Shown here one piece after another: positions 17,989 through 32,981 of a stretch of 64,000 nucleotides of DNA. Numbering within the stretch: the first letter of the stretch is position 1; each line of letters opens with the position of its first letter. The stretch is from Clostridiales bacterium (GTDB lineage Bacteria; Bacillota; Clostridia; Lachnospirales; Lachnospiraceae), in the NCBI GenBank assembly GCA_012839295.1, contig DUNO01000008.1:1-64000 (forward strand), in the 5' to 3' direction. The translations under genes and the position numbers were made by a program. A model generated the notes under the pieces. It worked only from the letters and a program-made list of their open reading frames with translations, ran no database searches and was not told the origin of the DNA.

Positions 17989-18006
17989 GTCCGTTAAAAG
18001 TCCGTT
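17989..18006 (+). other. Left-end GTCCGTT repeat pair (integrase arm-type candidate)
   Basis: GTCCGTT occurs at 17989 and 18000, period 11. The same pair with the same period is present at the right end (32964 and 32975). Phased short repeats just inside both ends are typical arm-binding sites of tyrosine integrases. Confidence 0.5.
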
Positions 18007-18017
18007 AGGAGAAAGGG

Positions 18018-18041
18018 AACAGCACCCCGAAGGATGCTGTT
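18018..18041 (-). terminator. Terminator with UUCG tetraloop
   Basis: A 10-bp stem (AACAGCATCC/GGGTGCTGTT) closes a TTCG loop on the minus strand, right at the stop of the DUF2335 gene and followed by CCCTTTCTCC. The uridine tract is weak, but the stem is very stable. It ends the leftward transcript of the element. Confidence 0.65.
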
Positions 18042-18496
18042 TATTTTTCATCATCATTTTCATTACTTTTATTTCTAGTCCCATATATAAAGACAGATAC
18101 CAAGCCTCCTAGACCTCCCGCTCCCAACACTGTGGATTCTAATGTTCTTCCATTCAGTCCGAGAATCAAACTTACTATTAATGAAATTGCCCCAATAAGA
18201 AAACCAAACAATATACCCATAAAGCTATCGCGGGTTCCAGAATCAATTATTTTCCTCTCTGTTCTTTGCCTATGCGAAGCTTGTTGTTCAGCCATTATCA
18301 ATATTCGATTAGCAAATGTAGGGTCTATCTCATTATATTCAGCCAACACCTCTGGAGATGGTATTGGTCCCATGTGTAGACTTCTTTTCTCAAAAGTGGT
18401 AACTGCTGTTTCAGATTCCCCATGATCTTCATATTGATGCGTAATATCATTATCATCATCGTTCTCTTCTACCAGCTCCAACGCATTCAAACTCAT
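18041..18496 (-). CDS. DUF2335-family membrane protein
   Basis: The central motif GPIPSPEVLAEYNEIDPTFA with ILIMAEQQASHRQRTE after it is the DUF2335 signature. Two hydrophobic segments follow (SFMGILFGFLIGAISLIVSL and a glycine-rich helix). I use the ATG at 18496 because GGGGGG lies six bases upstream; an ATG 21 bases earlier also has a site. The family is found in phages, islands and chromosomes and is uncharacterised. It overlaps the upstream 74-aa ORF and ends the element's leftward genes. Confidence 0.7.
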   Translation of the reverse strand: MSLNALELVEENDDDNDITHQYEDHGESETAVTTFEKRSLHMGPIPSPEVLAEYNEIDPTFANRILIMAEQQASHRQRTERKIIDSGTRDSFMGILFGFLIGAISLIVSLILGLNGRTLESTVLGAGGLGGLVSVFIYGTRNKSNENDDEK

Positions 18497-18680
18497 CAAT
18501 AGCCCCCCGAATATCATCTCCTACGGCTTCCCAGTCTAGCAACATAGCCTCCCTGTCTGCTTCAACCTCATCTTTCTGGATTTCAAACTTCTTTTTATTT
18601 ATTGTTGATCCCAGATCTAAAATTCTGGACATACCCTCAATGAAATTAGGGATACCTCTCATATAATGGCTTTTATACAT
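18456..18680 (-). CDS. Hypothetical protein (74 aa)
   Basis: A small charged, helical protein (FEIQKDEVEADREAMLLDWE) with an AGGAGGT site seven bases before ATG. It overlaps the DUF2335 gene by about 40 bases, suggesting coupled translation. Not recognised. Confidence 0.55.
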   Translation of the reverse strand: MYKSHYMRGIPNFIEGMSRILDLGSTINKKKFEIQKDEVEADREAMLLDWEAVGDDIRGAIDEFECVGAGRRER

Positions 18681-19063
18681 ACTTGCACCTCCTATTACTT
18701 AGTACGACAAAGCACTTGTTTGTATTATATTTATACCAAACATTAGATTAAAATGCAACACATTTCCTATATTTAGCCTATCCTTTATTATTCTTTATTA
18801 TATTATACACCTATCATCCATATTCTTCAATGAATTTCACAAAGAGACACCTGCCGGAGTAAGTGCCCGTCTGCTCTGCATGCAGAATGCTATTCATTTA
18901 CATGCTGCCGGTGAACGGCTGTGTTATCCGTATTGTTGCGTAAAACCCCCAAGGGGAGGTATCGACTACATAGGTCCCGGCATTATATGTCTAAGGTGGG
19001 CGGTGAAATGCCGTATACCGTCACAGGAATCCCCTTCACGAAAGATAATGTCTCGCAATCAAT
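18681..19063. other. Intergenic region in the element
   Basis: No gene is supported. The minus strand has an open continuation after the 59-aa ORF stop (VKGIPVTVYGISPPTLDI) without a ribosome site, perhaps an old reading-frame extension. A plus-strand 99-codon frame here has no ribosome site and odd composition. Confidence 0.3.
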
Positions 19064-19243
19064 TCACTTTTCATGAAGGAGGATCCGCAGCTCCTGCCCC
19101 ATCACTTCCCCGATCCGGTACGTCAGCCGACCGCCCCAGGGATACCGTGATTTACCGTAGCCCTTACGCTTTTTCTTAGCTCTCTCAATAGCTTCCCCGG
19201 CCGTCCTATCTATGTAATGCTCATGGTTCTTATACGCTGCCAT
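19064..19243 (-). CDS. Hypothetical basic protein (59 aa)
   Basis: A small gene with AGGAGGT directly before ATG, overlapping the last 14 bases of the sigma-factor gene. The product is basic (RAKKKRKGYGKSRYPWGGRL) and ends ELRILLHEK. The overlap suggests translational coupling with the sigma factor. It may be a small DNA- or RNA-binding partner, but no family is recognised. Confidence 0.55.
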   Translation of the reverse strand: MAAYKNHEHYIDRTAGEAIERAKKKRKGYGKSRYPWGGRLTYRIGEVMGQELRILLHEK

Positions 19244-20120
19244 ACCTCCTCATGTCCTCCTCGTTCCTGATCGCTATGCTTTCCACTATGGAAGTGCCGG
19301 TATACCTGAAACTGCTTAAGCTGCCCCGGTACCCCCTGGCATAGTTAACTTCAAACCGCTCCTCCAGATGCCTGGTTATCCTTGAGCGCCTGAGCTTCCT
19401 TAATGCGCTGCCTTCTATCTGCCTGGCCATATCCCTAGACTTCCCGATCTGTTCCCCTGTCTGCTCTAAGGTCAGCCCTTTCCGGAATCTTGCCGTGATA
19501 ACAAAATTCTCCTCCTGGGTAACGTTATCCTTCACGATCTGCCACAGCTCCGTCCTCTTGCTCCGCTCGATCATACTGTCAGTAACGTCATTTTCTATGT
19601 CAATGCTGTAATCCCTTACCGTGTCCCCCAGCTCCAGATCCTCGGTACCAGGAAGGCATTCATCCAGGCTCTGGATCCGGTCAGCATGGACGGCTTTCTT
19701 GACCTCTTCCAATGCTTTCTTTCCCACACTGAGGTAATAGCATAATTCACGGTCCGTCGGTTTCCTCCCCAGCTCCTGCTGGAAGGCTTCCATTACCCTG
19801 TGATACTTCCGGATGTTGCCCTGCATAGCTGCAGGGATCCTGATGCAGCGCCCATTGTTTTCAAGATATCTCTGGATTGCCTGCCTGATCCAGTAGGAGG
19901 CATATGTCATGAACTTTACCCCTGCTGTTTCCTCATAACGCTTCACGGCTTCATACAGCCCGAAATAGGCTTCCTGGAGTAAATCGTCCATTTCATCCCG
20001 GAAGGCATACCTACGGACAATTTTGAAGATAAGGCGGTAGTTCTGTTGATAGAGCTGTTCCATATTATCACCTGGATTAATATCCTGCTGGATCCGTCCC
20101 ACTAATTCCTCGTTGGTCAT
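19230..20120 (-). CDS. Phage-type sigma-70 factor (regions 2-4)
   Basis: Region 2 spans YRLIFKIVRRYAFRDEMDDL to MTYASYWIRQAIQRYLENNG and is followed by a region-3-like segment (GRKPTDRELCYYLSVGKKAL). Region 4 is an HTH around LEQTGEQIGKSRDMARQIEG. The 296-residue protein has no region 1.1. The ATG at 20120 has a GGGGAGGAG site. It is the last large gene of the element's late transcript, which suggests delayed or positive-feedback control of element promoters. Its target promoters are unknown; phased repeats lie just upstream. Confidence 0.8.
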   Translation of the reverse strand: MTNEELVGRIQQDINPGDNMEQLYQQNYRLIFKIVRRYAFRDEMDDLLQEAYFGLYEAVKRYEETAGVKFMTYASYWIRQAIQRYLENNGRCIRIPAAMQGNIRKYHRVMEAFQQELGRKPTDRELCYYLSVGKKALEEVKKAVHADRIQSLDECLPGTEDLELGDTVRDYSIDIENDVTDSMIERSKRTELWQIVKDNVTQEENFVITARFRKGLTLEQTGEQIGKSRDMARQIEGSALRKLRRSRITRHLEERFEVNYARGYRGSLSSFRYTGTSIVESIAIRNEEDMRRYGSV

Positions 20121-20178
20121 GATATCTCCTCCCCTTTGTTTCATGTTGAAATCATACTAGGAATTACCAGGCTGCCAC

Positions 20179-21433: not shown

Positions 21434-21550
21434 TCACCTATATTTTCTACCAATCAGTTTAAGCTCCATCTCATAAGCCTGCTTAACCAGCTTATCTTTA
21501 TTTATTAAATGAGCATTATTCTTTTTCGGGTTCTTCATGGAACTCTTCAT
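21434..21550 (-). CDS. Small basic protein (38 aa)
   Basis: AAAGGAG lies seven bases before ATG. The product is basic (MKSSMKNPKKNNAHLINKDK to LIGRKYR). It overlaps the end of the 71-aa gene upstream in another frame, as is common in phage late operons. Function unknown. Confidence 0.45.
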   Translation of the reverse strand: MKSSMKNPKKNNAHLINKDKLVKQAYEMELKLIGRKYR

Positions 21551-21731
21551 CCTTATGCTCCTTTCTTGCCTTGCCGGCCAGCTCCTGGAATCTCTCTTCT
21601 GGAAGATCAGTATAAGCCAGCTCAATAAGTTCGGCGGTTGTTAGCTTGCTGAAATCATACTGATCCAGTTCATCCCCTCTGATTCCAGCAACTACCCTGG
21701 CCTGTTGAATCAACTTGTCTATGCCTTTCAT
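21516..21731 (-). CDS. Hypothetical acidic protein (71 aa)
   Basis: A helical, acidic protein (DELDQYDFSKLTTAELIELA, ending EEPEKE) directly downstream of the tape measure gene, overlapping it by four bases. Its position resembles that of small tail-assembly proteins, but those usually precede the tape measure gene. Not assigned. Confidence 0.55.
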   Translation of the reverse strand: MKGIDKLIQQARVVAGIRGDELDQYDFSKLTTAELIELAYTDLPEERFQELAGKARKEHKDEEFHEEPEKE

Positions 21732-23584
21732 GTATGCACCCCTTCCGCTGCTACCGCAATCTGCTCCTGAAGTATCCTGCTCATGCGCGAATACATTGCA
21801 TCGGTGTCAGCCTCCTTACTGATCGGACCGGTAAACTTTACAGATATCTTCGGAGCCAGTGTAGCGGTGGAAAATTTATTGACAAATTCACGCTCGGCCA
21901 GGTCACGGAGGTATCCTATATCTTCCTTGTCCATGCTTACATTCACATTCCCCTTGGATCCAGTACCTTCAACAACCGCAGGATATTGCTTCGTGCCTGT
22001 ATCCTCATTATTCGTGATTTTGTCTAATAGTTCATTCCACTTGCCGGTGACATTACCGTAGATGCTACTTCCTTTTTCCCATGTATCGGTATAGTCCATT
22101 CTATCAAGCTTATTCTCACTCAGGTCAACCCGGTCAATCTTATATTTGGCTTCCCCTGCCAGATCACCCGTATTCCCGATGATGAAACCCTTGAAGTTCT
22201 CCAGGGCTCCGGATATCCCTGTACCAAATATCTGGTCAATGACACTGGCAAGACCTTTCAGTAGATCGATGACGTTGGCTACGAAATCGTTGAATACTCG
22301 ACTCGCGGAGCCGATAGGATCATGCCATACATTTGCGAAGAATTCCGCAAAGCCTGCAAAAATATTATAAAGTGACTGTACGATGTCCGTTATGCCATTC
22401 CATAGCCCTGTAAACACGTTGTAGACGATCGCAACAGCAACCCCCACTATACCTCCGATAGCTCCGAAGATTTCCTCCCAGGTTGCTCCGAAGTCTCGTG
22501 CCGCCATTATGACGAGACCGATTACTGCGATTATCAGGAGTAGAGGCCAATAAGCCATTAACCATGCCGTGGCTTGTGCCGCCAATGCGGTTACCGTTTC
22601 CCATATCTTTGCTATAATTGCAGCCATGTATACAACCGCCACTATCTCTAATATTGTTTTAATAGCCGGCCAGTTACCTATTACAAAATCAATTACACCT
22701 CCGACCGCATCAGCTATCATATTGAAACCTGCAATCACTTTATTAATGAAGGACATAAACTGATCAGTGTTTATCAACTTGTTTACCTTCTCTATTAACC
22801 CGGAAAATGCGCTGAGGCCTCCATTTTTTATATCGTTCCAGTAGCTTGCAAAAGTATTTGGAAGGTCTGAAAATTTATCATTAATATCATCTCCAGCCAT
22901 GAAAAGAGCGTTTTTAATAATGTTGGCCGTTATTTTACTTTCAGCTCCCAATTCTTTTAATTCACCTTTGGATACACCCATATATTTTGCAATAGCATCA
23001 TACAGTATAGGTGCATTTTCACTTATTGATGTAAGTTCATCACCCTGGAGCCGTCCGGATGCCATTGCCTGAGTTAATTGCAGCATAGCAGATTGTTGCG
23101 AACCGGTATCTGCGCCTCCCAGTTTAAAGGATTTTTGCATCAATTCCGTAAAAGCGATGGTTTCATCATTGGATTTAAAAGCATCTCCGGCTAGTAATCC
23201 CAATTTAGAGACCGCTCCAGCCATACTGGTATATGATCCCTTTGCGCGATCCGCTGCAGCAAAAATCTTATCCTGGAGCTCTGCTTGGGTTTGTAAACCA
23301 TCATTAATTAAATCAAGCCTGGCCGCTGTGTTCATGTAAGTGTCTGATATATCCGCACCTTTGACAGCACCGGCAATCATAGCGGCTACGCTAAGGAATT
23401 TACTGAGACCGGAACTCCCCTTATTCGCACTAGCTTCAGTTGCTTCAAGCTTTTTATTAAATTTATCTGTTGCTCCGCTTGCCTGAAGGATTTTATTAGT
23501 GGCCTTATCCGTTTTCTGAATTATCTGTGTCAATGGTCCTGAATATCCATTAAGGATCTTAAACATTGCCGATAGAGTCGCCAT
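21728..23584 (-). CDS. Phage tail tape measure protein
   Basis: The N-terminal tape-measure domain is clear: QLTQAMASGRLQGDELTSIS, then YMGVSKGELKELGAESKITA. Two hydrophobic blocks (about 315-400) match the membrane-penetrating part of tape measure proteins. The protein sets tail length in siphophages and myophages. At 618 residues it is short, predicting a tail of roughly 90 nm at about 0.15 nm per residue. No other tail gene is recognisable in the element. The start follows the 113-aa gene with almost no gap. Confidence 0.85.
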   Translation of the reverse strand: MATLSAMFKILNGYSGPLTQIIQKTDKATNKILQASGATDKFNKKLEATEASANKGSSGLSKFLSVAAMIAGAVKGADISDTYMNTAARLDLINDGLQTQAELQDKIFAAADRAKGSYTSMAGAVSKLGLLAGDAFKSNDETIAFTELMQKSFKLGGADTGSQQSAMLQLTQAMASGRLQGDELTSISENAPILYDAIAKYMGVSKGELKELGAESKITANIIKNALFMAGDDINDKFSDLPNTFASYWNDIKNGGLSAFSGLIEKVNKLINTDQFMSFINKVIAGFNMIADAVGGVIDFVIGNWPAIKTILEIVAVVYMAAIIAKIWETVTALAAQATAWLMAYWPLLLIIAVIGLVIMAARDFGATWEEIFGAIGGIVGVAVAIVYNVFTGLWNGITDIVQSLYNIFAGFAEFFANVWHDPIGSASRVFNDFVANVIDLLKGLASVIDQIFGTGISGALENFKGFIIGNTGDLAGEAKYKIDRVDLSENKLDRMDYTDTWEKGSSIYGNVTGKWNELLDKITNNEDTGTKQYPAVVEGTGSKGNVNVSMDKEDIGYLRDLAEREFVNKFSTATLAPKISVKFTGPISKEADTDAMYSRMSRILQEQIAVAAEGVHT

Positions 23585-23585
23585 A

Positions 23586-23924
23586 TTACCATCCCTTCTT
23601 TAATAGCTTTAAATCAGGATATATAAACTCAGCCACACGATATTTTTTATTTTTTATCCTTAGCTTTGCATTATCCGTATATACAATCTCCAGATAGTCA
23701 ACCGGTCTATATATACCCTCAATGAATAATCTAACTGCACTCATAGCGCCAATGGCGAACTTGATTGCTTCTTCCAAGTTATCCCCGAATCTCTGTAATA
23801 TCCCAAAATCAGCTTTATCTTTTAAATCATTATCCAACGGTTGGATGCCCCTGATACTGACAACTACAAAGTTATTATCATGGTAGTCAATCTGGATAAA
23901 ATCTCTTCTTTCATATAATTCCAT
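23586..23924 (-). CDS. Hypothetical protein (112 aa)
   Basis: Starts MELYERRDFIQIDYHDNNFV and ends YPDLKLLKKGW. The mix of strands and helices is undistinguished. GGAAGG lies ten bases before this ATG; an in-frame TTG nine bases upstream is too close to it. It lies immediately before the tape measure gene, the place where tail-assembly chaperones are often found, but I see no slippery frameshift signal. Confidence 0.55.
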   Translation of the reverse strand: MELYERRDFIQIDYHDNNFVVVSIRGIQPLDNDLKDKADFGILQRFGDNLEEAIKFAIGAMSAVRLFIEGIYRPVDYLEIVYTDNAKLRIKNKKYRVAEFIYPDLKLLKKGW

Positions 23925-23992
23925 TATTATCAATCCTTCCTTTCATACAAAGCCCCTCACAGCGCACCATAGAGCCATGAGGGGCAGCACTG

Positions 23993-24241
23993 TTATTCTG
24001 TTTCTATTGCAGCATTGACCAGGGCAAACATTTCTTCCAGACATTCTTTCGCTGCTATTAAGGGGATCCCATCCGGGGCATATCCCAGTACATCAAGATT
24101 AGGACCAAGGACAGCCGTCTGCTTATCATTTGTTATGATAAGGTTATTACAGAAACTCATACCCAGTTTTCCGTAGATAGTTCCTTGATCCGGATCACTA
24201 TCATAATGGAATGTTACTCTTTTTCTATCTTTCATAGCCAT
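23993..24241 (-). CDS. Hypothetical protein (82 aa)
   Basis: Small protein with FHYDSDPDQGTIYGKLGMSF in the first half and an acidic C-terminal helix. A GAGGAG site lies just before ATG; an in-frame ATG six bases later is also possible. It is packed into the late operon, seven bases after the 71-aa gene upstream. Not recognised. Confidence 0.5.
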   Translation of the reverse strand: MAMKDRKRVTFHYDSDPDQGTIYGKLGMSFCNNLIITNDKQTAVLGPNLDVLGYAPDGIPLIAAKECLEEMFALVNAAIETE

Positions 24242-24248: not shown

Positions 24249-24464
24249 TCATCCTATAATTGTGCCAGGGGCATAATATTTGTTCTTGTCAGTAGCTTCC
24301 TCAAGATCTGCTAAATCCTGACCGGTTGCATCGGCAAAGGAGATCAGAATATTCTGCAGTTCCTTCTCATAAGCAGAATGCTTACCGTGGGTTGTCACAA
24401 TCTTGTTTCTCTCAACTCTCATGTACTCAATGAACCAATCATATAATTCTTCGTATGTTGTCAT
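24249..24464 (-). CDS. Hypothetical protein (71 aa)
   Basis: Starts MTTYEELYDWFIEYMRVERN and is mostly helical. AGGAGGATTATAAGGT precedes ATG. It lies between the 234-aa and 82-aa ORFs with short gaps. Not recognised. Confidence 0.5.
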   Translation of the reverse strand: MTTYEELYDWFIEYMRVERNKIVTTHGKHSAYEKELQNILISFADATGQDLADLEEATDKNKYYAPGTIIG

Positions 24465-24478: not shown

Positions 24479-25183
24479 CTATTTCATTATGTTGTATTTA
24501 TGGATATCTTCTACAGCCACTCTCACGTTGGATGAAAGATTCCGCGCTTCGACTTCCTTAACGATATTGTCCCAGGAGATCATGACCGGTCTCACTGTAT
24601 CCCCTACTATCTCCTGAAAACAGAGCATAGATGATACTAGCTGCCTCAGTGCAACAATTGTCTTAATTGCCTCATCGATCTGTCCAGTTATGTAATCAAC
24701 AGCCTCATACTCCGGAAGCGGAGCAATGAATTTACCATCCTTATATCCATTCCTGGCTTTATGCTCGATCTGGACCAGTCTGCAGATATTCATATCCAGG
24801 TAATTCTCCTTGTAGTACTCTAGCAGCTCCTCATCTTTCATGACCTTCAGCTCTTTTTCGATGAAGGATAATTCCAAGGGATCCGTGATTGCGGTAACTG
24901 GTGCAATATCCTTGATATATTTCTCCCTCAGTTCCTTAAGACGGGTCAAGCTGCCATCCAGTGCCGCGACATTGATATTCTTCATCTCAACCAGCAAGGC
25001 TGCCTTATTCTCTTTCACATACTCAACAGCATAAATATTGCGTGTCTGCTGATAGTGCAATAATCCATAGCTGGCCAGCCTTGTATTGATCTCCCTGATC
25101 ATGCCCGAATAGTCCAGAATGATCTTCTGGATATCGCTGAGGTACTGACCTCTTTGTGCTTGTGTGATCTCTCTTAGTTTCAT
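24479..25183 (-). CDS. Hypothetical helical protein, first gene of the late operon
   Basis: A 234-residue, almost wholly helical protein (for example QYLSDIQKIILDYSGMIREI and ELSFIEKELKVMKDEELLEY). AAAGGAG precedes ATG. It is the first gene after the leader and terminator at 25305-25420, so its expression should depend on that leader. It could be structural or a scaffold-like protein, but nothing in the sequence proves this. Confidence 0.55.
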   Translation of the reverse strand: MKLREITQAQRGQYLSDIQKIILDYSGMIREINTRLASYGLLHYQQTRNIYAVEYVKENKAALLVEMKNINVAALDGSLTRLKELREKYIKDIAPVTAITDPLELSFIEKELKVMKDEELLEYYKENYLDMNICRLVQIEHKARNGYKDGKFIAPLPEYEAVDYITGQIDEAIKTIVALRQLVSSMLCFQEIVGDTVRPVMISWDNIVKEVEARNLSSNVRVAVEDIHKYNIMK

Positions 25184-25543: not shown

Positions 25544-25711
25544 CTATTTAAGCTCTATATAAGCCTTTTTATACCTACCCTGATTATTCTTTGCAACCTT
25601 AACATTTCTAATCATCGGTTCAAGGAGGTTAACAATAGTTAACAGATCCTGATCGCTAATGTATGATACTTTTATTTTAGCTGTTATCCTGATCAGCTCC
25701 CTTCCGGTCAC
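25544..25711 (-). CDS. Small basic protein (about 55 aa, start uncertain)
   Basis: The open frame reads AKIKVSYISDQDLLTIVNLL and ends RYKKAYIELK, a pattern I have seen in small phage proteins. A GTG at 25711 is possible but lacks a ribosome site. AAGGGAGCTGATCAGGATA resembles the AAAGGAGCTGATCGGAGTG start of the next gene upstream, so the real start may be the rare codon ATA at about 25688. The phased GTTAACA doublet lies inside this gene. Confidence 0.4.
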   Translation of the reverse strand: MTGRELIRITAKIKVSYISDQDLLTIVNLLEPMIRNVKVAKNNQGRYKKAYIELK

Positions 25712-25853
25712 TCAGCATAAGATTAAGCGCTAACGCTTGTATCAGTTCCAGATCACCCAGATTGTCTATGTTCTCAATTATCGCACTGATCTGATCCCGG
25801 CAATCATTCAGAAGCTCCTTGTGATCTACTACGGTTAAATATACTTTATTCAC
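25677..25853 (-). CDS. Hypothetical acidic protein (58 aa)
   Basis: I place the start at GTG 25853, nine bases after AAAGGAG. The product starts MNKVYLTVVDHKELLNDCRD and is mostly helical. A longer frame upstream of it overlaps the zinc-ribbon gene and is not needed. It overlaps both neighbours by a few bases. Function unknown. Confidence 0.5.
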   Translation of the reverse strand: MNKVYLTVVDHKELLNDCRDQISAIIENIDNLGDLELIQALALNLMLSDRKGADQDNS

Positions 25854-26007
25854 TCCGATCAGCTCCTTTCCGGATCCGTGGCTGGTAGATGCTGCCACAG
25901 ATGTAAAGGTACCGGCCACACACCGGGCAGCTCTCTGTATTCATATTATGATATGTATTACATTTCAGACACTTCCGGGAATCATTAATCATAGGTGATC
26001 TACTCAT
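25846..26007 (-). CDS. Zinc-ribbon micro-protein (53 aa)
   Basis: Two CxxC pairs are present: KCLKCNTYHNMNTESCPVCG. This is a treble-clef or rubredoxin-like zinc knuckle. The ATG overlaps the stop of the preceding gene (ATGA) and has an AAGGTG site. Such micro-proteins occur in phage early regions, sometimes as inhibitors of host enzymes; no specific role can be assigned. Confidence 0.6.
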   Translation of the reverse strand: MSRSPMINDSRKCLKCNTYHNMNTESCPVCGRYLYICGSIYQPRIRKGADRSE

Positions 26008-26498
26008 TGGGACACCTTCTTTCTCCTGGCTCTCTCAGCCTTAACTCCCTGGATGTATCCCCAGTTGTAGGCATCAATGAGTTTAAAGGTTGATTCATGC
26101 TCGAAATCGTCAATTGCGTATATCATGTCCATCTGATCATAAAAAGCCTTCTGGCGTCCTATCATACTGAAATTTCTTTCGAGTTGCTCAAATCTGGCGT
26201 TTTGCTCTCTCATCCAGATTACTTTGTCCAAAAGATCAAGCGTTGTAGAAAGGCTTTTCATGGTTGACTCCACATCCTTCCGGATCTCAGGCCTTCTACT
26301 TTTATCAGCCTTAAGATATATCCTTGATATCATTAAATAAACGTCCGCATCCTCACGATTACTGTTCAGTATCAGCATGTCCTCACTTGGATCATAAAAC
26401 AGACTCACCGTCGCTGGATCCTCAATTTCTTTATCAACCAGATCCTCTATGCTGCAGGACTGGATCCGTAATTCTTCATTTACTATTGAATAACTCAT
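26004..26498 (-). CDS. Hypothetical protein (164 aa)
   Basis: The N-terminal half is mixed, then a long helical region (KDVESTMKSLSTTLDLLDKV) and a basic end (GVKAERARRKKVSQ). AAAGGAGAAAATTGT precedes ATG. It belongs to the early operon and is coupled to the zinc-ribbon gene through ATGA. Not recognised. Confidence 0.55.
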   Translation of the reverse strand: MSYSIVNEELRIQSCSIEDLVDKEIEDPATVSLFYDPSEDMLILNSNREDADVYLMISRIYLKADKSRRPEIRKDVESTMKSLSTTLDLLDKVIWMREQNARFEQLERNFSMIGRQKAFYDQMDMIYAIDDFEHESTFKLIDAYNWGYIQGVKAERARRKKVSQ

Positions 26499-26631: not shown

Positions 26632-26802
26632 TTAATTCCCATGGACGGAAGCCACCACACTCAGGAATGTCCTTCCCTGGAATGAATCCGTGATGCTGTC
26701 CAGGGTATCATTGAGGCGGTCAAGCTGCTCATTCTGCGCCTGGATCCCCTTATTGATGCCCTGTAAGGCTTCCAGGATGGATTTTAATAATTCATCGTTC
26801 AT
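26632..26802 (-). CDS. Small coiled-coil protein (56 aa)
   Basis: The product (MNDELLKSILEALQGINKGI, then QAQNEQLDRLNDTLDSITDS) shows a clear heptad pattern, so a coiled coil is likely. GGAGCGAG precedes ATG. It lies in the early operon between the zinc-binding protein and the 164-aa ORF. Function unknown. A hairpin with GCCCTT/AAGGGC and a T tract on the plus strand lies just after its stop (about 26591-26632). Confidence 0.5.
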   Translation of the reverse strand: MNDELLKSILEALQGINKGIQAQNEQLDRLNDTLDSITDSFQGRTFLSVVASVHGN

Positions 26803-26823
26803 TTACTCGCTCCTTCCATTTTT

Positions 26824-27126
26824 CTAATCTCTCCACAATTCATTGATATCGCCTGATAGGATTTCATCATCAGTAAAGGTTACACCCTTGTGAAACTGAA
26901 AAACTTTTGAAAATCTGTGTCCATCCTCACAGGTGAATATTACTTTAACGATAGCTCCCCTGTGCAGGTTCTCCACCTTGTGGTTCTCTACTCTGCCTCC
27001 GCCAATTTCCATAACCTCACCACCCTGGTTAATCATCACACTATGAAGATGGCAGTTCTGGCACTCACACACCGGACAACACATTACATTATCTGGTTTT
27101 GCTCCACTTTCATAAAAGTTGTACAT
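26824..27126 (-). CDS. Cysteine-rich zinc-binding protein (100 aa)
   Basis: The N-terminus carries MCCPVCECQNCHLH, a dense cysteine/histidine cluster, and a second possible ligand set appears as TCEDGH. The start at 27126 overlaps the end of the DUF3987 gene and has an AAGGGGAAG site. Co-translation with the DUF3987 protein suggests a partner role in element replication, which is inference. Confidence 0.55.
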   Translation of the reverse strand: MYNFYESGAKPDNVMCCPVCECQNCHLHSVMINQGGEVMEIGGGRVENHKVENLHRGAIVKVIFTCEDGHRFSKVFQFHKGVTFTDDEILSGDINELWRD

Positions 27127-28711
27127 TGTCTTCCCCTTCCTTTTGAACCTTTTGCAATTCATACTCTGGATTGATTTCAATAATATCAGATGGTCTGCCA
27201 CTATTTGAATTGTCCTTGTAAATCCGAATGTATCCGTGGTTTACCAATTCATCCAGTCCCGGCTTCATTTCATCGGCTGTTTTAAACCTTCTACACAAAC
27301 GAAGCAAATCTCTTTTTGTAATGGTTTTGTCACATTTGTCACGTTTGTCACAGCACCTAAGAATATATTTTGCATCCTTGATTTCCTGTGCTTCCGTCAG
27401 TCCTGCAATCTGAAAAGCAGCAATTGCATGATCAAGAAAATACTTCCCTATACTGATGGCTTCATTCATTGTCTGCCCAGTCAATTCAGTCGTGGGAGTG
27501 GATGCCAAATGCTTGACACAATGTAAGATTGCAGCTATCCTCATTGTTTGTCCGTGAAATTTTCCAGCCCAATCCTCAATTTCTTCATAATCATCCAGTA
27601 ATTTACTTTCTATCTCATTGGCAAATGATTCACTTAATATATTAGCCTCCTTGCTGAACCGAATTGTCCTTGTCTCAAACTTCCAATCCCTCAGAGATAA
27701 CAAATTGTTAACAAGATCCTTATAGGCCTTTCTAATATTAGGATTTATAGGTTTGGAATTATATCTTCGTTTTCCAACAATGGAAGAGGGTAAGGAATAT
27801 AAAAACCTTGCAAGCAATCCCCTTTCTCTAAATTCCTTGTTCTGCATAGCATCACTTGCAACTACTGGTTGTGTCATAATCAATAGTGTTAACAAAGGAT
27901 TATTGATACTCTCACCTTTCCTCCCTATCCGGTCAGAAGAATATGGCTCACCTGAATATGATTTTAAGAAAATATCAATATTTGGCTGATTATTGTATCT
28001 CCCTGCCATCATGCCGAATATTCCACCTTCGGCAGTAACAATGGATATACGCTCATTATTTTCCTCCATGATTTTGACCAGGGCTTCCGTTGTAACATCA
28101 TCAACTATAATCCTTAATGGCGTTACTTCCTCCAGTTCATCAAGATCCTTTTGAGCTTCTATGACATCCTTTACAGATGTGTTCTTTTTATTTCCTACAA
28201 CAGCCTTTTTTAAAGAATCCACCTTTTTAGATAGAATATCCTTTTTGATGAGATACTCAGCTATTTCTGGCTGCTTCTCCTTATTTACTTCATCAACATA
28301 TTTATAGACTGGGTCTGTTATCTCCTTCATAGTAGGGGACTTTCGCTCTGATGGTCTGGCAATAACCAGTATGTACAGATTAAGTGGCTCCTTCCAGTCT
28401 TCTTTAGGCTGAACATAAAACTCACCCTGCAAACATAAAGCCATGATCCCTAATATTGCCACTGCAACCATATCAATAGATACCTGCAGGGATTCGGCAA
28501 CCGCTATAGAATAATCTCTAATAACAGCAGGGAAGGCTTCTATTGGGAAAGTTAATAATTGATTTATACCGGGTGTGACAAATGTGACAAAAGGGACAAA
28601 ACCATTTTTATCCAACCCTAAATCTGATTCTTCCTCTGGAATCCTTCTTTCGCATTCTCTAATAATGTCAACAAATCGCTGTTGGTCAAATTCTGTAAAT
28701 TCCTTTTCCAA
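27110..28711 (-). CDS. DUF3987 (YfjI-like) replication-type protein
   Basis: A 533-residue protein with the DUF3987 core: LNLYILVIARPSERKSPTMK resembles a Walker A loop, followed by IIVDDVTTEALVKIMEENNE and TAEGGIFGMMAGRYNN. A winged-helix-like end (KRDLLRLCRRFKTADEMKPG) follows. DUF3987 proteins occur in prophages and islands and are thought to be primase-helicase-like ATPases. The frame opens with TTG at 28711 very close to GGTGGAGGA, and overlaps the 126-aa gene by 94 bases, so the true start may lie downstream. Confidence 0.75.
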   Translation of the reverse strand: MEKEFTEFDQQRFVDIIRECERRIPEEESDLGLDKNGFVPFVTFVTPGINQLLTFPIEAFPAVIRDYSIAVAESLQVSIDMVAVAILGIMALCLQGEFYVQPKEDWKEPLNLYILVIARPSERKSPTMKEITDPVYKYVDEVNKEKQPEIAEYLIKKDILSKKVDSLKKAVVGNKKNTSVKDVIEAQKDLDELEEVTPLRIIVDDVTTEALVKIMEENNERISIVTAEGGIFGMMAGRYNNQPNIDIFLKSYSGEPYSSDRIGRKGESINNPLLTLLIMTQPVVASDAMQNKEFRERGLLARFLYSLPSSIVGKRRYNSKPINPNIRKAYKDLVNNLLSLRDWKFETRTIRFSKEANILSESFANEIESKLLDDYEEIEDWAGKFHGQTMRIAAILHCVKHLASTPTTELTGQTMNEAISIGKYFLDHAIAAFQIAGLTEAQEIKDAKYILRCCDKRDKCDKTITKRDLLRLCRRFKTADEMKPGLDELVNHGYIRIYKDNSNSGRPSDIIEINPEYELQKVQKEGEDNVQLL

Positions 28712-28998
28712 TCCTCCACCGCCTTTTTCTGTCTTTCTTTAAAATCTTTGTCCAGCTCCTTTCTATACCATTCAGCAACCTTCTTCATTTCTGCATCATC
28801 ATTCGCCTTCCATGCAGCATACCAGGCATTGTACCGGTCAGCTACATCCTTCCTGCCGATTCCGGTCAGCTTGACGGCTACCGCTTCCAGGAAGGGCTTG
28901 TCGTACATGGAATATCCCAGAACCTTCTTGAAGAATGCTTCATCAAATACCGTGTCCTGGCTAATGCCGTCATAAAATGATTGCTTATTTACTGCCAC
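28618..28998 (-). CDS. Hypothetical charged protein (126 aa)
   Basis: Begins MAVNKQSFYDGISQDTVFDE and is rich in lysine, glutamate and aromatic residues (AWYAAWKANDDAEMKKVAEW). It follows the HTH gene with no gap and overlaps the DUF3987 start. It is probably an accessory protein for the element's replication. Not recognised. Confidence 0.5.
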   Translation of the reverse strand: MAVNKQSFYDGISQDTVFDEAFFKKVLGYSMYDKPFLEAVAVKLTGIGRKDVADRYNAWYAAWKANDDAEMKKVAEWYRKELDKDFKERQKKAVEDWKRNLQNLTNSDLLTLLENAKEGFQRKNQI

Positions 28999-29244
28999 CT
29001 ACTCACCTACTCGCCTTAATTTACCGTAATTCACTTGTTCCGGCTCCTTTACCTCCTGATCACCGGATAAGTACTCCAGAAGCTTATCTAGGTTGACCAG
29101 CTGCTTCCGGCCAGCATGGAATACCGGGACCTTGTTCTGCTTCACCAGGCCACGAAGGTAATACTCTGTAATGCAACTTTCTGGATCCTCCTGGCGAAGG
29201 TACTCCATACAGCCTGAAATTGTTCTCATTCTAGTTAATGCCAT
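28999..29244 (-). CDS. Excisionase-like HTH protein
   Basis: The segment CITEYYLRGLVKQNKVPVFH followed by AGRKQLVNLDKLLEYL is a MerR/Xis-type winged-helix pattern. I use the ATG at 29244; the upstream GTG frame start contains the ribosome site (AAAGGAG) itself. In the context of an integrase it could be the directionality factor, or it could help replication initiation. Confidence 0.55.
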   Translation of the reverse strand: MALTRMRTISGCMEYLRQEDPESCITEYYLRGLVKQNKVPVFHAGRKQLVNLDKLLEYLSGDQEVKEPEQVNYGKLRRVGE

Positions 29245-29261
29245 ATTATCCCATTCTCCTT

Positions 29262-29570
29262 TCACGTAGTCTCTGTTAATTCCATCATGAGGTCTTGTAG
29301 CAGCTCCTGGCCACTATCGTTGGGTGTGATTTCAAATCGCACCCTTCCATGGATATCCTTAAATGTTAACCCCAATTCCTTCATTGCCTTCTCCCTGAAA
29401 AACAGAAACCAGCTTTCGCCTATTCTGCGTTTAGCCATCTTCCCATCACAATCCGTTCTGAGGCTCCGGCTTGCTTCTCGGTAATAGCATCTACCATTCG
29501 ATGCATCACGTTCGTAATTAACATTTTCGAAAACGAAGTCATTCTCGTTAATAAAGAATGTGCTATTCAT
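29262..29570 (-). CDS. Hypothetical protein (102 aa)
   Basis: Starts MNSTFFINENDFVFENVNYE and contains SRSLRTDCDGKMAKRRIGES. GGGGGATTTT precedes ATG. Early-operon gene between Rha and the HTH gene; its stop is just after the HTH gene's ribosome site. Not recognised. Confidence 0.5.
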   Translation of the reverse strand: MNSTFFINENDFVFENVNYERDASNGRCYYREASRSLRTDCDGKMAKRRIGESWFLFFREKAMKELGLTFKDIHGRVRFEITPNDSGQELLQDLMMELTETT

Positions 29571-29584: not shown

Positions 29585-30241
29585 TTAACCAGCTATACCA
29601 ATCGCAACCACACTGTTTAATTGTTCCGCTTTAGCTTTACAATCCTTGAATATGTCATGGTGGTCTTTATTCTCATCCATGCCGGCCTGAATGATCTGAG
29701 CAAAGATGTTCTCGATCAGCTTCAGGTAGTTCAATTGCATTATAGTAGCTTCATCAACATGCTTAATTCCAACCGTCTTATTGGCTAAGGTGGTATAGTT
29801 GGTATATAGGTTCTTATACCCTCGGCTGCCACGATTCTTTGCGTATTCCACAAGCTCCTTAATGATTGCTGTCTCTGCCAACCTCACCGGCTTACCTTCC
29901 TTCCGGAAGAATTGCCATTCCTCTGTAGATTGTTCCTGGAGCAGTCGGCGCATGGCATAGAACTGGCGGACAAGCTCCGTTTTAAAGTCAACAACCTTAT
30001 CCGTATTCTTAAGTAGCGTAATAAGGAATGTTGCCTGCTCTTCATTCAAATCAAATATTTCCTCCGGTCTACCGCCGGTACTTTCTGTCTGATGTGCGCC
30101 CAAAAGTCCAAACCGCATGAGCCTATCAGAATACTTCCTTATTGCATCTTTTATCCTTCTGTGATTTATGCCGGTACCCTCCGCAATAATTAAGCTATCA
30201 GTAAATACCTCTTTCCCTTTCAGAATAACTAAATCCTGCAA
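29585..30241 (-). CDS. Rha-family phage regulatory protein
   Basis: The N-terminal segment KGKEVFTDSLIIAEGTGINH followed by IRKYSDRLMRFG and ending TFLITLLKNTDKVVDFKTEL is the Rha family pattern. The C-terminal half is helical. I place the start at TTG 30241, nine bases after AAGGAGG; an ATG 30 bases upstream has no site. Rha proteins are lysogeny-associated regulators, first noted as interfering with phage growth when a host factor is absent. Confidence 0.7.
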   Translation of the reverse strand: MQDLVILKGKEVFTDSLIIAEGTGINHRRIKDAIRKYSDRLMRFGLLGAHQTESTGGRPEEIFDLNEEQATFLITLLKNTDKVVDFKTELVRQFYAMRRLLQEQSTEEWQFFRKEGKPVRLAETAIIKELVEYAKNRGSRGYKNLYTNYTTLANKTVGIKHVDEATIMQLNYLKLIENIFAQIIQAGMDENKDHHDIFKDCKAKAEQLNSVVAIGIAG

Positions 30242-30422
30242 TAACGATTTCCTCCTTTTCCTTGATATCATTTATTATTACAGATTCCAATTTTTTAAAC
30301 TTTTTCTCCACAGCTTTTCTGTGCGATATTGCACAATACAGTTCCCTGGCTCTCAGATCAGCCAATATTCAGATTTTCTTTACCCTGGCAGAGCTGCCGG
30401 GTGATAGTTGTTATGTAGCAAC

Positions 30423-30617
30423 TTAGTTCTCGATCAGCTCGGTTACATCGACTTCCAAAGCTGCAGCAAGTCGTCCAATTGTCTGCGGTCTAGCTACTGA
30501 TCCATTTCTAAGTTTGCTTAAAGTAATAACATTTACTCCGCTTTTCTTAGATAAATCTTTAGCACTCATACATTTAGTTGCCAATATAATATCGAATTTC
30601 TTATTATTCAGTTTCAC
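30423..30617 (-). CDS. Cro-like XRE-family HTH protein
   Basis: A 64-residue single-domain HTH: CMSAKDLSKKSGVNVITLSK then LRNGSVARPQTIGRLAAALE. It is divergent from the CI-like repressor across a shared operator region. It likely acts as the early switch protein. GGGGG precedes ATG. Confidence 0.8.
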   Translation of the reverse strand: MKLNNKKFDIILATKCMSAKDLSKKSGVNVITLSKLRNGSVARPQTIGRLAAALEVDVTELIEN

Positions 30618-30681: not shown

Positions 30682-30707
30682 TCATATTTTATTAATTAAT
30701 TTTATAC

Positions 30708-30736: not shown

Positions 30737-30769
30737 AATTACATATTTGTTTCATACGGAGGTATTAAT

Positions 30770-31264
30770 ATGAGTTCATTTGAAATATTTCAAAGTAGAA
30801 TAAAAGAGTTGCGAGAAGAGAGAGGAATGACCCAAAAGGATTTTAGTGAATTTATTGGCATCTCACAACAAACCCTATCAGGCTATGAAAGAGGAGTAAC
30901 TACTCCCTCACCTGATGCTTTAAGAAACATTGCAGAAAAATGCAATATATCAGTAGACTGGTTATTAGGATTAAGCGATAAGAAATACTTGACTTATAAA
31001 ATCGAAACTTACTCGGATCTGTTTGGAGAATTGATAAAATTATACGATGCAAAAAGATTTGAAATTGAAACAATGGCTTCAAACAAGGTTCTTAATTTAA
31101 CCGTTCTTACCTTTGATGATATTGTAATTCCAAAGTTTATGGAGGATTGGATGAATATATTAGCACTACGATATAATCGCTCCGTGGATGATGAATTATA
31201 TAGCATTTGGCTTGAAAGAACGCTCGCTAAATATGATATTCCTATAGAAAATGACAGTAATTAA
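30770..31264 (+). CDS. CI-like XRE-family repressor
   Basis: The N-terminal HTH is clear: LREERGMTQKDFSEFIGISQ then QTLSGYERGVTTPSPDALRN, ending SVDWLLGLSD. The remaining 90 residues are helical without a LexA-type peptidase pair, so release by RecA cleavage is unlikely. An antirepressor or satellite-style helper signal is a better guess. It is divergent from the cro-like gene. Confidence 0.8.
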   Translation: MSSFEIFQSRIKELREERGMTQKDFSEFIGISQQTLSGYERGVTTPSPDALRNIAEKCNISVDWLLGLSDKKYLTYKIETYSDLFGELIKLYDAKRFEIETMASNKVLNLTVLTFDDIVIPKFMEDWMNILALRYNRSVDDELYSIWLERTLAKYDIPIENDSN

Positions 31265-31560: not shown

Positions 31561-31566
31561 AAGCAT

Positions 31567-31595
31567 ATTATACTCCATTAGCGTAGTAATGTCAA
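31567..31595 (-). promoter_or_regulatory. Consensus promoter of the antisense RNA
   Basis: Perfect -35 TTGACA and perfect -10 TATAAT with 17-bp spacing on the minus strand. There is no ORF behind it, which points to a non-coding RNA. Confidence 0.8.
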
Positions 31596-31604
31596 TGTTG
31601 TAAA

Positions 31605-31634
31605 AAGCCGCCCCGGCGGTAACCAGGGCGGCTT
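31605..31634 (-). terminator. Hairpin terminator upstream of the antisense promoter
   Basis: AAGCCGCCC and GGGCGGCTT form a 9-bp GC-rich stem, followed by TTTTT on the minus strand. It would shield the antisense RNA unit from readthrough from the integrase side. Confidence 0.6.
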
Positions 31635-31652
31635 AAACGATACCATATAAGC

Positions 31653-31705
31653 AAGAGCCTATACAATATACCTTCGACAAGTATTATTGTACCATACAGG
31701 CTCTT
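31653..31705. repeat. Inverted repeat in the integrase leader
   Basis: AAGAGCCT and AGGCTCTT form the outer stem; TACAATA and TATTGTA form an inner stem. It lies 20-80 bases before the integrase start and could be an operator, an Xis/Int site or a translational control hairpin. Confidence 0.5.
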
Positions 31706-31736
31706 TCAATACAATACAGAAAGGATGTTTGATACA

Positions 31737-32948
31737 ATGGCAAGCAAAACCCCCAGAAAAGACAAAAACGGCAATGTTACCTCATACCAGATCGAGGTCT
31801 ACCGTGGCCGGGATTCCGAAGGGAAGAAGCTCAAACCCTATAGCATGACCTGGCAGATCCCGGAAGGATGGAAATCGGAAAACAAAATCAAGAAAGAACT
31901 TGACCGTGTGGCAGCACAATTTGAAATCGACTGCAAGGCCGGGATCGTTCCTTTGGAGAAGAAAACCTTCAAGCAATACAGTGACTATGTCATAGAGCTG
32001 AAAGAACGTGACCTCAAACATAGGACAGTCCACCGGTATAAGCAGCTCCTGGAGCGTATCAATGGAGAAATCGGTTATATGAATCTAGCAGACATGACCG
32101 GCGAGCATCTCAATCGGCTATATATAAAACTCGGTAAACCCGGCGCCAACAAGAGAACCGGAGAGCCACTTTCCCCACAGACCATCCATCTCTATCACCG
32201 GATTATCCACATGATCTTTGCCCAGGCGGTGAAAGAACATATCTTCTTGTATAATATAGCCAATACAGCCACTCCCCCAAAAATGGAGAAGCGTGAAGCG
32301 GAGTTCTTTGAACTGGAGGAGGTATTGGCTATCCGGGACGCATTAATCCAGCAGCCTTTGAAATGGCAGGCCATCACGGATCTGCTGATTGATACCGGAG
32401 CCAGGCGAGGCGAAATCCTTGGGCTTAAATGGGAGAACATAGACTTTAAGAATAATAAGATCGAGATCAAAGGCAACCTACAGTACACCCCAGAACAGGG
32501 GATTTACCTGGAGGATTCCACTAAAACCGATGAAGATAGGACTGTTACCATTGCGCCGGAGATAATGCGGATACTGGCCGCATACCGAAAGGAGCAATTG
32601 CAGTATAAATTACAGTGTGGTGATTTCTGGACTGAAACCGGCTTCTGTTTCACCCAGGAGAACGGCACACCTATGCACCCAAGCCAGGTCAATGTATGGC
32701 AGCAAAGATTTTCACAGGACTACTCCCTTCCCCATATCCATCCACACAAGTTTAGGCACACCCAGGCAAGCCTATTATATTTCTCCGGCGAGGATCCGGT
32801 TACCATATCAAATCGGCTGGGCCATAAGCACGTAAGCACTACACAGAACATTTATGGCCATATCATGAAGGGTGCCGATGAACGTGCCTCTGACAAGATA
32901 GCGTCCATGTTATACCGGAACAATCCCCCAAGCAGTGAAGCCAAATGA
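31737..32948 (+). CDS. Tyrosine recombinase/integrase
   Basis: An N-terminal arm-binding region, a SAM-like core-binding domain (KQYSDYVIELKERDLKHRTV) and a catalytic domain are present. The catalytic residues are visible: Arg in DTGARRGEILGLKW, His-x-x-Arg in HPHKFRHTQASLLYF, His in LGHKHVSTTQ and Tyr in NIYGHI. The ATG at 31737 is preferred over one 12 bases upstream that sits too close to AAAGG. It is followed by repeats and a terminator at the right end of the element. Confidence 0.93.
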   Translation: MASKTPRKDKNGNVTSYQIEVYRGRDSEGKKLKPYSMTWQIPEGWKSENKIKKELDRVAAQFEIDCKAGIVPLEKKTFKQYSDYVIELKERDLKHRTVHRYKQLLERINGEIGYMNLADMTGEHLNRLYIKLGKPGANKRTGEPLSPQTIHLYHRIIHMIFAQAVKEHIFLYNIANTATPPKMEKREAEFFELEEVLAIRDALIQQPLKWQAITDLLIDTGARRGEILGLKWENIDFKNNKIEIKGNLQYTPEQGIYLEDSTKTDEDRTVTIAPEIMRILAAYRKEQLQYKLQCGDFWTETGFCFTQENGTPMHPSQVNVWQQRFSQDYSLPHIHPHKFRHTQASLLYFSGEDPVTISNRLGHKHVSTTQNIYGHIMKGADERASDKIASMLYRNNPPSSEAK

Positions 32949-32981
32949 CCGTTTTTATATTTTGTCCGTTATTTGTCCGTT
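32947..32981 (+). other. Right-end GTCCGTT repeats (integrase arm-type candidate)
   Basis: GTCCGTT at 32964 and 32975 has the same 11-bp period as the left-end pair. A related GACCGTT lies at 32947, overlapping the integrase stop. Confidence 0.5.

Follow-up and report, generated by a model that had tools for sequence, protein, structure and literature searches.

The window analysed here, a stretch of 64,000 nucleotides, carries between lysC and apgM an integrated element of about 15.26 kb (15,261 bp) at about 17,852-33,112. These borders were set from imperfect 23-nt flanking repeats (17830-17852 and 33091-33113, 20/23 identical in a local match) and from the empty site of the same-genus genome G012 (locus L131), where the sequence is uninterrupted. 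The genes lysC and apgM are also directly adjacent and insert-free in G006, G003 and G016, and the same adjacency was searched for in G004 and not found. The initial annotation had rightly described a discrete element, but its borders have been moved to the positions given here. The host is a gut-type bacterium and the element is chromosomal. Its features are as follows, with E-values after the family names.

17830..17852, no strand: attL-like repeat, matching 33091-33113, with an empty counterpart in G012
18041..18517, minus: moron-like DUF2335 membrane protein (PF10097 3.7e-14; phrog_3996 4.3e-32)
18456..18680, minus: 74-aa protein (phrog_27385, of unknown function, 5.8e-4)
19064..19243, minus: o59, small gene beside the sigma gene (siblings: L192 62%, L193 58%)
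19230..20144, minus: sigma-70 family factor with regions 2, 3 and 4 (PF04542 3.3e-16, PF04539 3.4e-7, PF04545 4.4e-10); identity 64% to L192, 61% to L059, 50% to L156, 49% to L193
20415..21173, minus: TerS, small terminase subunit (phrog_309 1.2e-55); residues 187-252 (the last ~65 aa) share ~55% identity with a protein of 74 aa encoded on its own in L156
21160..21453, minus: o97 (L156 45%; tblastn match in L137)
21516..21731, minus: o71b, 4-nt overlap with the TMP gene (L156 58%)
21728..23584, minus: tape measure protein (TMP), 618 aa (PF20155, TMP_3, 5.9e-42; phrog_1068 2.1e-149)
23586..23933, minus: o115, immediately upstream of the TMP gene, near the tail assembly chaperone position of phages
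23993..24241, minus: o82, ORF with no family assigned
24249..24464, minus: o71a (L156 62%)
24479..25183, minus: o234, possible distant member of SatX, a protein type of the second group of loci described below (L156 58%)
25544..26498, minus: o55b, o80, o53 and o164, four small early genes in an order conserved in siblings (L192: o164, o80, o55b; L194: o164, o53, o55b)
26632..27201, minus: o56 and o125 (o56 50% in L192; o125 a 29-aa match only)
27110..28711, minus: DUF3987 helicase/primase-like replication protein (PF13148 5.9e-101; phrog_2373 6.5e-88; L192 53%)
28618..29570, minus: early genes o126 (L192 64%, L194 72%), o88 (L192 47%) and o102 (no relative seen by tblastn against the siblings)
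29585..30271, minus: Rha-type regulator/antirepressor (PF09669 6.1e-18; phrog_2657 4.6e-32)
30423..30617, minus: Cro-like HTH protein (tblastn relatives in L048, L053 and L192)
30770..31264, plus: divergent CI-like repressor (PF01381 1e-19)
31725..32948, plus: tyrosine integrase (PF00589 7.2e-26), with copies elsewhere in the same genome in L129 (89%) and L128 (86%)
33091..33113, no strand: attR-like repeat; the homology of the L129 copy stops at 33113

All 27 ORFs counted as genes are stop-free, the coding fraction is 0.846, and the genes are mostly tightly packed. Twenty of them were scanned against Pfam and PHROGs, the remaining seven being 53-80 aa long, and the matches confirmed the inventory first proposed for the locus (integrase, CI/Cro, Rha, DUF3987 protein, TerS, 618-aa TMP and sigma-70 factor), with Cro identified by its tblastn relatives. 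The accompanying statement that no portal, capsid, large terminase, tail tube or lysis gene is recognisable was also borne out: besides TMP and TerS, none of these 20 ORFs matched at E <= 0.05 a family for head, connector, large terminase, tail or lysis functions, and a tblastn search with hallmark proteins over the 15,261-bp element returned the TMP as its sole match, with no head, connector, sheath, tube or baseplate gene. Since the only ORFs longer than 235 aa are those for the integrase, the DUF3987 protein, the TMP, the sigma factor and TerS, all of which are identified, a portal or large terminase of normal size cannot hide among the unknowns. No PADLOC family was found at E <= 0.01 among the ten window proteins examined. 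Judged by its sequence, the element would count as a satellite in the general sense, because it is compact and integrated, its mobility and replication genes are intact, and it has no virion gene set.

PICIs (SaPI-like) are elements of ~15 kb with an integrase, divergent repressor genes, their own replication gene and a TerS, and without head genes; they are not known to encode a tail structural protein or a sigma-70 factor. The window element is PICI-like in its size of ~15 kb, its integrase, its CI (plus strand) and Cro (minus strand), its DUF3987 protein, its phrog_309 TerS and its lack of head genes, but it differs in possessing a tail structural gene, the full-length TMP, and a sigma factor with regions 2-4. 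It differs also from the cf-PICIs, which build capsid and packaging machine themselves with genes for capsid, portal and large terminase, in that it contains neither a match to any of these three nor an ORF of fitting size.

Related elements and the place of the tape measure gene

Elements with the same backbone share between six and 13 of the 27 window proteins (tblastn E <= 0.1: 13 in L192, 9 in L194, 6 each in L193 and L156). No TMP was seen in L192, L194 or L156, which indicates that the TMP is not essential to the backbone. L193 carries a TMP of another family (best match phrog_1293, E 2.4e-44, with phrog_1068 absent among its 25 matches), and this TMP is flanked by the sigma factor on one side and by the protein at the SatX position on the other, which is the place of the window TMP, the window having o71b, o97 and TerS in addition. 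The two families are partly connected, since the window and L193 TMPs both match phrog_58 and phrog_1272. The L193 TMP also shares a match to phrog_1293 with the TMP of L195, an element in which scaffold, MCP, TMP (PF10145 1.9e-20; phrog_13339 1.5e-123), the C-terminal module of TerS and a sigma factor occur together; of the capsid-type genes, L195, L160 and L168 have only MCP and scaffold. L048, L149, L158 and L162 likewise combine a lone TMP with TerS and a sigma factor, in agreement with the earlier view that the element is satellite-like rather than the product of random decay.

A second group of loci with lone TMPs, comprising 30 partly redundant loci across Bacillota, was retrieved through an orphan gene, here called “pre”, that lies directly upstream of the TMP gene. 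Cultured carriers of this group include Falcatimonas sp. MSJ-15, Tepidibacillus decaturensis Z9 and Caloramator quimbayensis USBA 833. A TMP is present in 30/30 of these loci, and none of eight contractile-tail hallmarks is present in 29/30, where the contigs of L140, L142, L143, L146, L147 and L148 end at the TMP and leave its 3' side unseen. At least two hallmarks were found in 52/55 comparison TMP loci, or in 48/51 when L037, L043, L050 and L051, from which the tail queries were taken, are removed; the three misses are L112, which is itself a satellite, L093, which is ambiguous, and L092, which has a distant tail type. A sigma factor occurs in 16/30 of the “pre” loci and an integrase in 17/30, several contigs being cut. 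TerS was found by tblastn in 12/30, of which five match the window TerS, three of them through the C-terminal module alone; the full set of TerS, sigma factor and TMP is therefore not universal. The number of independent elements is below 30, because three of the loci belong to the “pre” profile itself (L157 is the contig of L048, L160 is the contig of L053, and L138 is 100% identical to L112 in the compared proteins) and others are near-copies (L141-L143; L147 and L161).

When the “pre” profile was run against 397 Lachnospiraceae genomes, its four matches were the three profile-source elements and a weak match in G491 (7.6e-6), so that none lies at an ordinary tail cluster among the fetched loci. 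Neither SatX (one query sequence) nor “pre” (two query sequences) was found in phages. The predicted fold of SatX is good (pLDDT 86.6, pTM 0.70), and the model has zero matches at E <= 0.001 in BFVD and PDB. The profile of the L192 protein in the SatX place matches SatX weakly (E 0.0026), and that of its L193 counterpart gives no match (E 0.27).

A lone TMP accompanied by a SatX-type protein characterises the “pre” group, many members of which also have TerS and a sigma factor. The window element has TerS, sigma factor and TMP; no “pre” gene lies directly upstream of its TMP, and the similarity of its o234 to SatX is weak (hhalign E 5.8e-4, with a probability of only 29%). Modelled alone, o234 folds poorly (mean pLDDT 46.3), and its helix order resembles that of SatX, which is no proof; matches to it are absent from phage and plasmid records, and scans of viral contigs with o234 and with the L048 sigma factor returned zero relatives. 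For o115 there is no family at E <= 0.05, there are zero matches among 50,697 phage records, and no relatives were found. In profile comparisons neither o115 (E 0.11) nor “pre” (E 0.12, probability 0.5%) matches an XkdN-type chaperone, and o115 does not match “pre” either (hhalign against the “pre” profile A3, E 0.14). This profile has zero matches in the window's own genome (G000), and no phage chaperone is recognisable beside the window TMP.

Descent of the tape measure protein

The window TMP covers positions 57-705 of the 706 in the phrog_1068 profile and is therefore full length. Of the 80 loci whose TMP ORF is at least 400 aa long, 70 went into a TMP tree; those left out as partial, near-copies or distant were L027, L033, L034, L037, L054, L092, L106, L143, L146 and L153, and TMPs that are cut or split (L140, L145, L148, L163 and L168) were never included. 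In this tree the satellite TMPs are scattered among those of phages; its starred branches force at least 12 changes of the satellite label, where labels were assigned by the analyst on gene content. AU tests on 38 rows chosen from the 70 reject a single satellite clade (p-AU 1.0e-63, or 7.8e-11 without the window). These sequences show that TMPs have passed repeatedly between satellites and phages. The dN/dS ratios of three pairs of satellite TMPs, which do not include the window TMP, are 0.25, 0.39 and 0.24, indicating that the TMPs of other satellites are under purifying selection; in the comparison for the window TMP the synonymous sites are saturated.

These results bear on the possibility that the element is the shrunken remnant of one contractile-tailed prophage, in which TMP, TerS and sigma factor survived by chance when the head and connector genes and most of the tail genes were lost. 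The rows of the tree closest to the window TMP are indeed phage TMPs, with a top identity of 55%, and decay does occur in these elements, since a related element in the same genome, L129, is remnant-like (integrase, CI and Cro) and the sigma match in L194 extends over just 114 aa. Such a remnant would not, however, be expected to have all its genes open and mostly tightly packed, and lone-TMP elements recur in several Bacillota families with an integrase-to-TMP span of 10.5-12.6 kb in the 15 measured. Together with the siblings that lack a TMP or carry one from another family, the interleaved tree and the purifying selection on the three satellite pairs, the existence of this lone-TMP group makes the decay of a single prophage unlikely.

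A probable satellite with its own tape measure protein

The closest functional parallel is found in the PLE satellites of Vibrio cholerae, for which a recent report (Nature 2026, PMC12987554) describes a satellite-encoded TMP in chimeric tails; the PLE TMP was detected in virions, and tmp deletions lower transduction by 96, 99 and about 99.9%. The same source mentions further putative tmp genes, both in Vibrio satellites other than PLE and, in the legend of Extended Data Fig. 10, in cf-PICIs. The window element resembles PLE in being a satellite with an alternative TMP and without tail tube or sheath genes in a contractile-tail context, and chimeric tails would be expected. It is unlike PLE in its Lachnospiraceae host, in its CI/Cro-Rha regulation, as in temperate elements, and in its TerS, sigma-70 factor and DUF3987 protein, and it has no recognisable TAC, whereas PLEs, which parasitise the lytic phage ICP1, have a TAC beside the TMP and some a baseplate hub (PMC12987554).

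The best explanation, and one that we consider probable, is that the element is an integrated phage satellite, a kind of element carried in the particles of a helper phage, and that it inserts its own TMP into tails made by the helper. We infer the helper, the packaging and the incorporation of the TMP, while the gene content, the borders, the empty site and the recurrent design are read directly from the DNA. CI would hold the satellite silent until a helper relieves repression through Rha or through a helper factor; the integrase would then excise the element, the DUF3987 protein would replicate it, and the satellite sigma factor would switch on its late genes. TerS would direct the helper's large terminase onto satellite DNA, and the satellite TMP would be threaded into tails otherwise composed of helper proteins, giving satellite particles with chimeric tails. 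That related parasites have acquired TMPs repeatedly suggests such a placement of their own TMP in tails taken from a virus.

A different tail length, which the initial annotation had proposed as the outcome, is not clearly predicted relative to the nearest phage lineage, because the 618 aa of the window TMP are close to the 606-612 aa of the nearest three phage TMPs and the 606-632 aa of the nearest five. PLE tails are ~10 nm shorter than those of ICP1, consistent with a TMP that differs by 95 aa (PMC12987554), and complete TMPs of the second group range from 642 to 1044 aa, but given the lengths in its own lineage it is very unlikely that the window TMP sets a tail length unlike the helper's. 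The gain is probably independence from the helper's TMP, which might allow the satellite to evade TMP-directed defences or provide an alternative route for DNA across the cell membrane.

The TMP could instead be a weapon that competes with or poisons the tail assembly of the helper or of a rival phage and has no place in satellite particles. Mobile elements are known to carry defences that act on tail assembly (Tai, PMC11364771; a virion-assembly inhibitor, PMC10884400; Rta, PMC12987554), and siblings of the window element hold defence-type genes: in L192 an FRG-domain protein (PF08867 1.5e-20) directly precedes the sigma factor, and L193 has at its far end a SIR2-like protein (PF13289 6.1e-25). 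This is nevertheless a rather unlikely account of a TMP that is full length, in a group that has acquired TMPs of many lineages with a satellite-type gene upstream, and given that the PLE protein is present in the virion.

Incorporation of a satellite TMP into helper tails is not the new satellite strategy that had been supposed, since it is published for PLEs; it was shown only in 2026 and in that one system. What is new in elements of the window type is the capsid-less Bacillota members, the exchangeable TMP slot, the orphan proteins and the sigma factor. No report of such elements in Clostridia or of a satellite sigma factor was found in open PMC text, an absence that carries little weight. 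It seems somewhat more probable than its converse that these elements constitute capsid-less Bacillota satellites with a swappable TMP slot, which have repeatedly acquired from phages TMPs that belong to at least two families, often encode a satellite sigma factor, and possess the orphan proteins SatX or “pre”, which possibly load the satellite TMP. If this is true, these satellites leave the particle to the helper and provide the sole protein that measures the tail and guides DNA through the membrane. Related backbones that lack a TMP, hold one of contractile-tail type or hold one from another family form a natural comparative series, in which the advantage of a private TMP becomes testable as escape from TMP-directed defence, as host entry or as helper choice, and SatX and “pre” may serve as marker genes for locating such satellites in gut and thermophilic Bacillota.

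The suggested search for a prophage in the same genome whose tail genes would match was negative for this TMP family: at E <= 0.001 the window's own match is the sole phrog_1068 match in its genome. Of the two sheath genes in that genome, one lies in a tailocin-like locus, which encodes a divergent TMP-like protein of 450 aa and within the 20 kb examined gave no match to a portal, capsid or large terminase, and the other in an eCIS-like locus; a co-resident helper with the TMP family of the window is accordingly rejected. This counts against the satellite reading, as does the failure to recognise a phage chaperone beside the window TMP. Late sigma factors control tail clusters of the PBSX/tailocin type, Xpf being that of PBSX. 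In L091, a tailocin-like locus, a sigma-70 gene lies immediately upstream of the sheath gene and, unlike the window with its TMP only, the locus holds a whole tail cluster.

Gene content and borders of the element

The gene list of the initial annotation (integrase, CI, Cro, Rha, DUF3987, small terminase subunit TerS, sigma-70 factor and tape measure protein, TMP) proved to be real in Pfam and PHROGs scans, with Cro recognized through tblastn kin only, and the TMP spans positions 57-705 of its 706-position PHROG profile. No further virion gene was found at E ≤ 0.05 with Pfam and PHROGs in the 20 of 27 ORFs scanned, and the largest ORF without an assignment encodes 234 aa, well short of what a portal, large terminase or sheath usually measures. 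A 33-nt inverted repeat (27320-27352 and 28574-28606, 91% identical) lies close to both ends of the DUF3987 gene.

The element is carried on contig C6 of a 6.36-Mb genome, G000. Blast comparison with same-genus genomes showed that in G012 the lysC side (to ~17852) joins the apgM side (from ~33094) without an insert. Both element borders carry a 23-nt repeat whose copies, TTTTGTTTACCATATATTTTATT and TTCTGTTTACCTAATATTTTATT, differ at three positions, and a single copy of it is present at the G012 joint; the repeat and the uninterrupted site together define an element of ~15.26 kb. Among the five relatives compared, lysC and apgM are also adjacent in G006, G003 and G016, while in G004 the apgM side alone was detected. 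Two more copies of the integrase occur elsewhere in G000, one (89%) in a stub that also encodes CI and Cro, the other (86%) in a locus which reaches its contig end and has the small ORF o88 in common with the window.

Siblings with the same backbone

When 195 relatives were queried with the window sigma factor, TerS and small ORF o234, matches beyond the window's own genome were obtained in three genomes for sigma (E ≤ 1e-60), seven for TerS (E ≤ 1e-10) and one for o234. The same-genus locus L192 matches 13 of the 27 window proteins, with the order kept from CI to o55b, past which lie a 198-aa protein, an FRG-domain protein, sigma (64%) and o59 (62%); no TMP was seen there. Nor was one seen in the same-genus locus L194, where early genes occur together with the C-terminal module of TerS and a 114-aa sigma match, perhaps from a broken gene. 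In L193, from the same family, o126, o164 and o55b are followed by 207-aa and 125-aa proteins, a 575-aa TMP of a family other than the window's (phrog_1293, E 2.4e-44), and then sigma and o59. On the contig L156 (G006:C2; 12,504 bases, 12.5 kb), ParA- and primase-helicase-like proteins, judged by eye from the ORFs, accompany a set of window-type late genes (o97, o71b, C-terminal part of TerS, sigma, o234, o71a), and there is no TMP; its ends seem to overlap, and this plasmid-like contig is possibly a satellite on a plasmid.

On this gene content, the window element is one of a group of mosaics whose TMP is a late gene that can be absent or exchanged for another, a pattern hard to reconcile with the falling apart of one prophage. 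The earlier preference for a satellite over random decay is borne out. It is most fittingly placed, as a new form, within an already known satellite kind; searches of open PMC papers turned up none describing elements of this type in Bacillota, or a satellite sigma factor.

The FRG-domain protein of L192 (7835-8716) and a SIR2-like protein of L193 (401-2011) are possible anti-phage cargo. The 18.4-kb viral contig L059 carries a sigma factor 61% like the window's, a TerS-like protein nearby and resolvase-, ParA- and FtsK/Rep-like proteins (judged by eye), has no TMP match, and reads as a mixed plasmid/satellite element.

A second group of lone-TMP elements

Relatives of the window TMP on viral contigs all lie in ordinary contractile-tail clusters (13/13). 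TMP loci were present in 27 of 195 genomes of relatives and 61 of 397 family-member genomes, and examination of the stronger ones yielded three additional lone-TMP elements, L048 (G109), L053/L094 (G080) and L112 (G452), the first two from genomes sharing the window genome's family code f1. All three have, immediately upstream of the TMP, a common orphan gene, 'pre' (129-148 aa in profile A3). A scan with 'pre' gave 18 loci from viral contigs and 12 from genome contigs, drawn from Lachnospiraceae, Oscillospiraceae, Tepidibacillus, Vallitalea, Caloramator, Alkaliphilus, Bacillus and Clostridium, and one locus in a MAG labelled Gastranaerophilales. Against 397 Lachnospiraceae genomes the 'pre' profile matched four, namely the three elements partly used to build it and, weakly, G491 (7.6e-6), so the remaining genomes with TMP loci are without 'pre' at E ≤ 0.001.

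The most complete gene order is integrase(-), CI(-), Cro, D5-type primase-helicase, small genes, TerS, the orphan SatX (212-257 aa, profile A6), sigma, 'pre' and TMP. By tblastn at E 1e-3, and with many of the 30 contigs cut, TMP was present in 30/30 loci, integrase in 17/30, sigma and primase each in 16/30, TerS and CI each in 12/30 and Cro in 9/30; some other members have TerS-type HTH proteins (e.g. L150, phrog_2538, E 8e-8). Eight contractile-tail hallmark queries had zero matches in 29 of the 30 loci, while at least two tail hallmarks were matched in 52 of 55 other TMP loci used as controls (48/51 when loci supplying queries are excluded). The sole exception, L136, has XkdP, Q, S and T after the TMP, and is perhaps a satellite with a larger tail share or a phage source of 'pre'. 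XkdR occurs in eight of the 30 loci, L136 included, and head hallmarks in three: major capsid protein and scaffold in L160 (the contig of L053) and L168, and a short MuF-like match in L161.

Within L136 the 'pre'-TMP block and XkdP, XkdQ, XkdR, XkdS and XkdT occupy 88-6883. The small elements L053/L160, L168 and L195 have scaffold, major capsid protein and TMP, with no portal or large terminase match in the DNA examined. Eight second-group loci encode, after the TMP, a protein of 553-676 aa whose start is signal-like (L048 13118, L053 12093, L139 13264, L150 13228, L151 11386, L152 8910, L158 12347, L162 13103); it has a 'DGDVI'-like motif, gave no Pfam family at E ≤ 0.01 in the two tested, and is possibly cargo.

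In 50,697 phage records, SatX (one sequence), 'pre' (two) and the window ORFs o234 and o115 had no tblastn match at E 0.01. The predicted SatX structure is confident and helical with a beta hairpin, and a fold search with it gave no match. The window o234, 58% identical to an L156 protein, may be a distant SatX, as suggested by an hhalign comparison (E 5.8e-4, probability just 29%).

Origin and possible use of the tape measure genes

A quick tree was built from 70 TMPs: 46 from phages or tailocins, 20 satellite-like and 4 unclear. It involves mosaic proteins and labels assigned from gene content; in it, satellite TMPs are dispersed among phage TMPs, with at least 12 label changes for the satellites forced by starred branches. 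An origin in one clade is rejected (p-AU 1.0e-63; 7.8e-11 without the window). The window TMP falls in a 99-starred set of 11 together with ten TMPs of phages or tailocins and with no other satellite TMP, which points to a separate capture. The TMP dN/dS in three satellite pairs is 0.25 (L053-L139), 0.39 (L053-L137) and 0.24 (L142-L144), above integrase (0.04) and 'pre' (0.21 and 0.08) and well under 1, which argues for use of the gene by these satellites; dN/dS of the window's own TMP is saturated.

PMC12987554 reports that the TMP of the Vibrio cholerae satellites PLE takes the place of the helper TMP in satellite virions, and that its loss lowers transduction by 96-99.9%. By analogy, the particle would probably draw head, tube, sheath and baseplate from a helper and the TMP from the satellite. 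Such a TMP must suit the tube and baseplate of the helper, and this would account for repeated uptake from phages. The tail-length remodelling proposed initially is not supported for the window element; an own TMP might instead let the satellite evade defences aimed at TMPs or enter other hosts, or might harm the helper. The sigma factor would most simply be a late regulator, since in L091, a tailocin-like locus of the same family, a sigma-70 gene sits immediately before the sheath gene.

Two loci elsewhere in the window's genome resemble contractile systems. L171 (G000:C2:52001-72000) is tailocin-like over ~7.6-20 kb of the locus, with CI, sheath, tube, XkdN, XkdP-U and a 450-aa divergent protein where the TMP would sit, and without a portal, capsid or large terminase match. 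For L172 (G000:C63:14001-34000), ORFs judged by eye and one Pfam sheath match suggest an extracellular contractile injection system.
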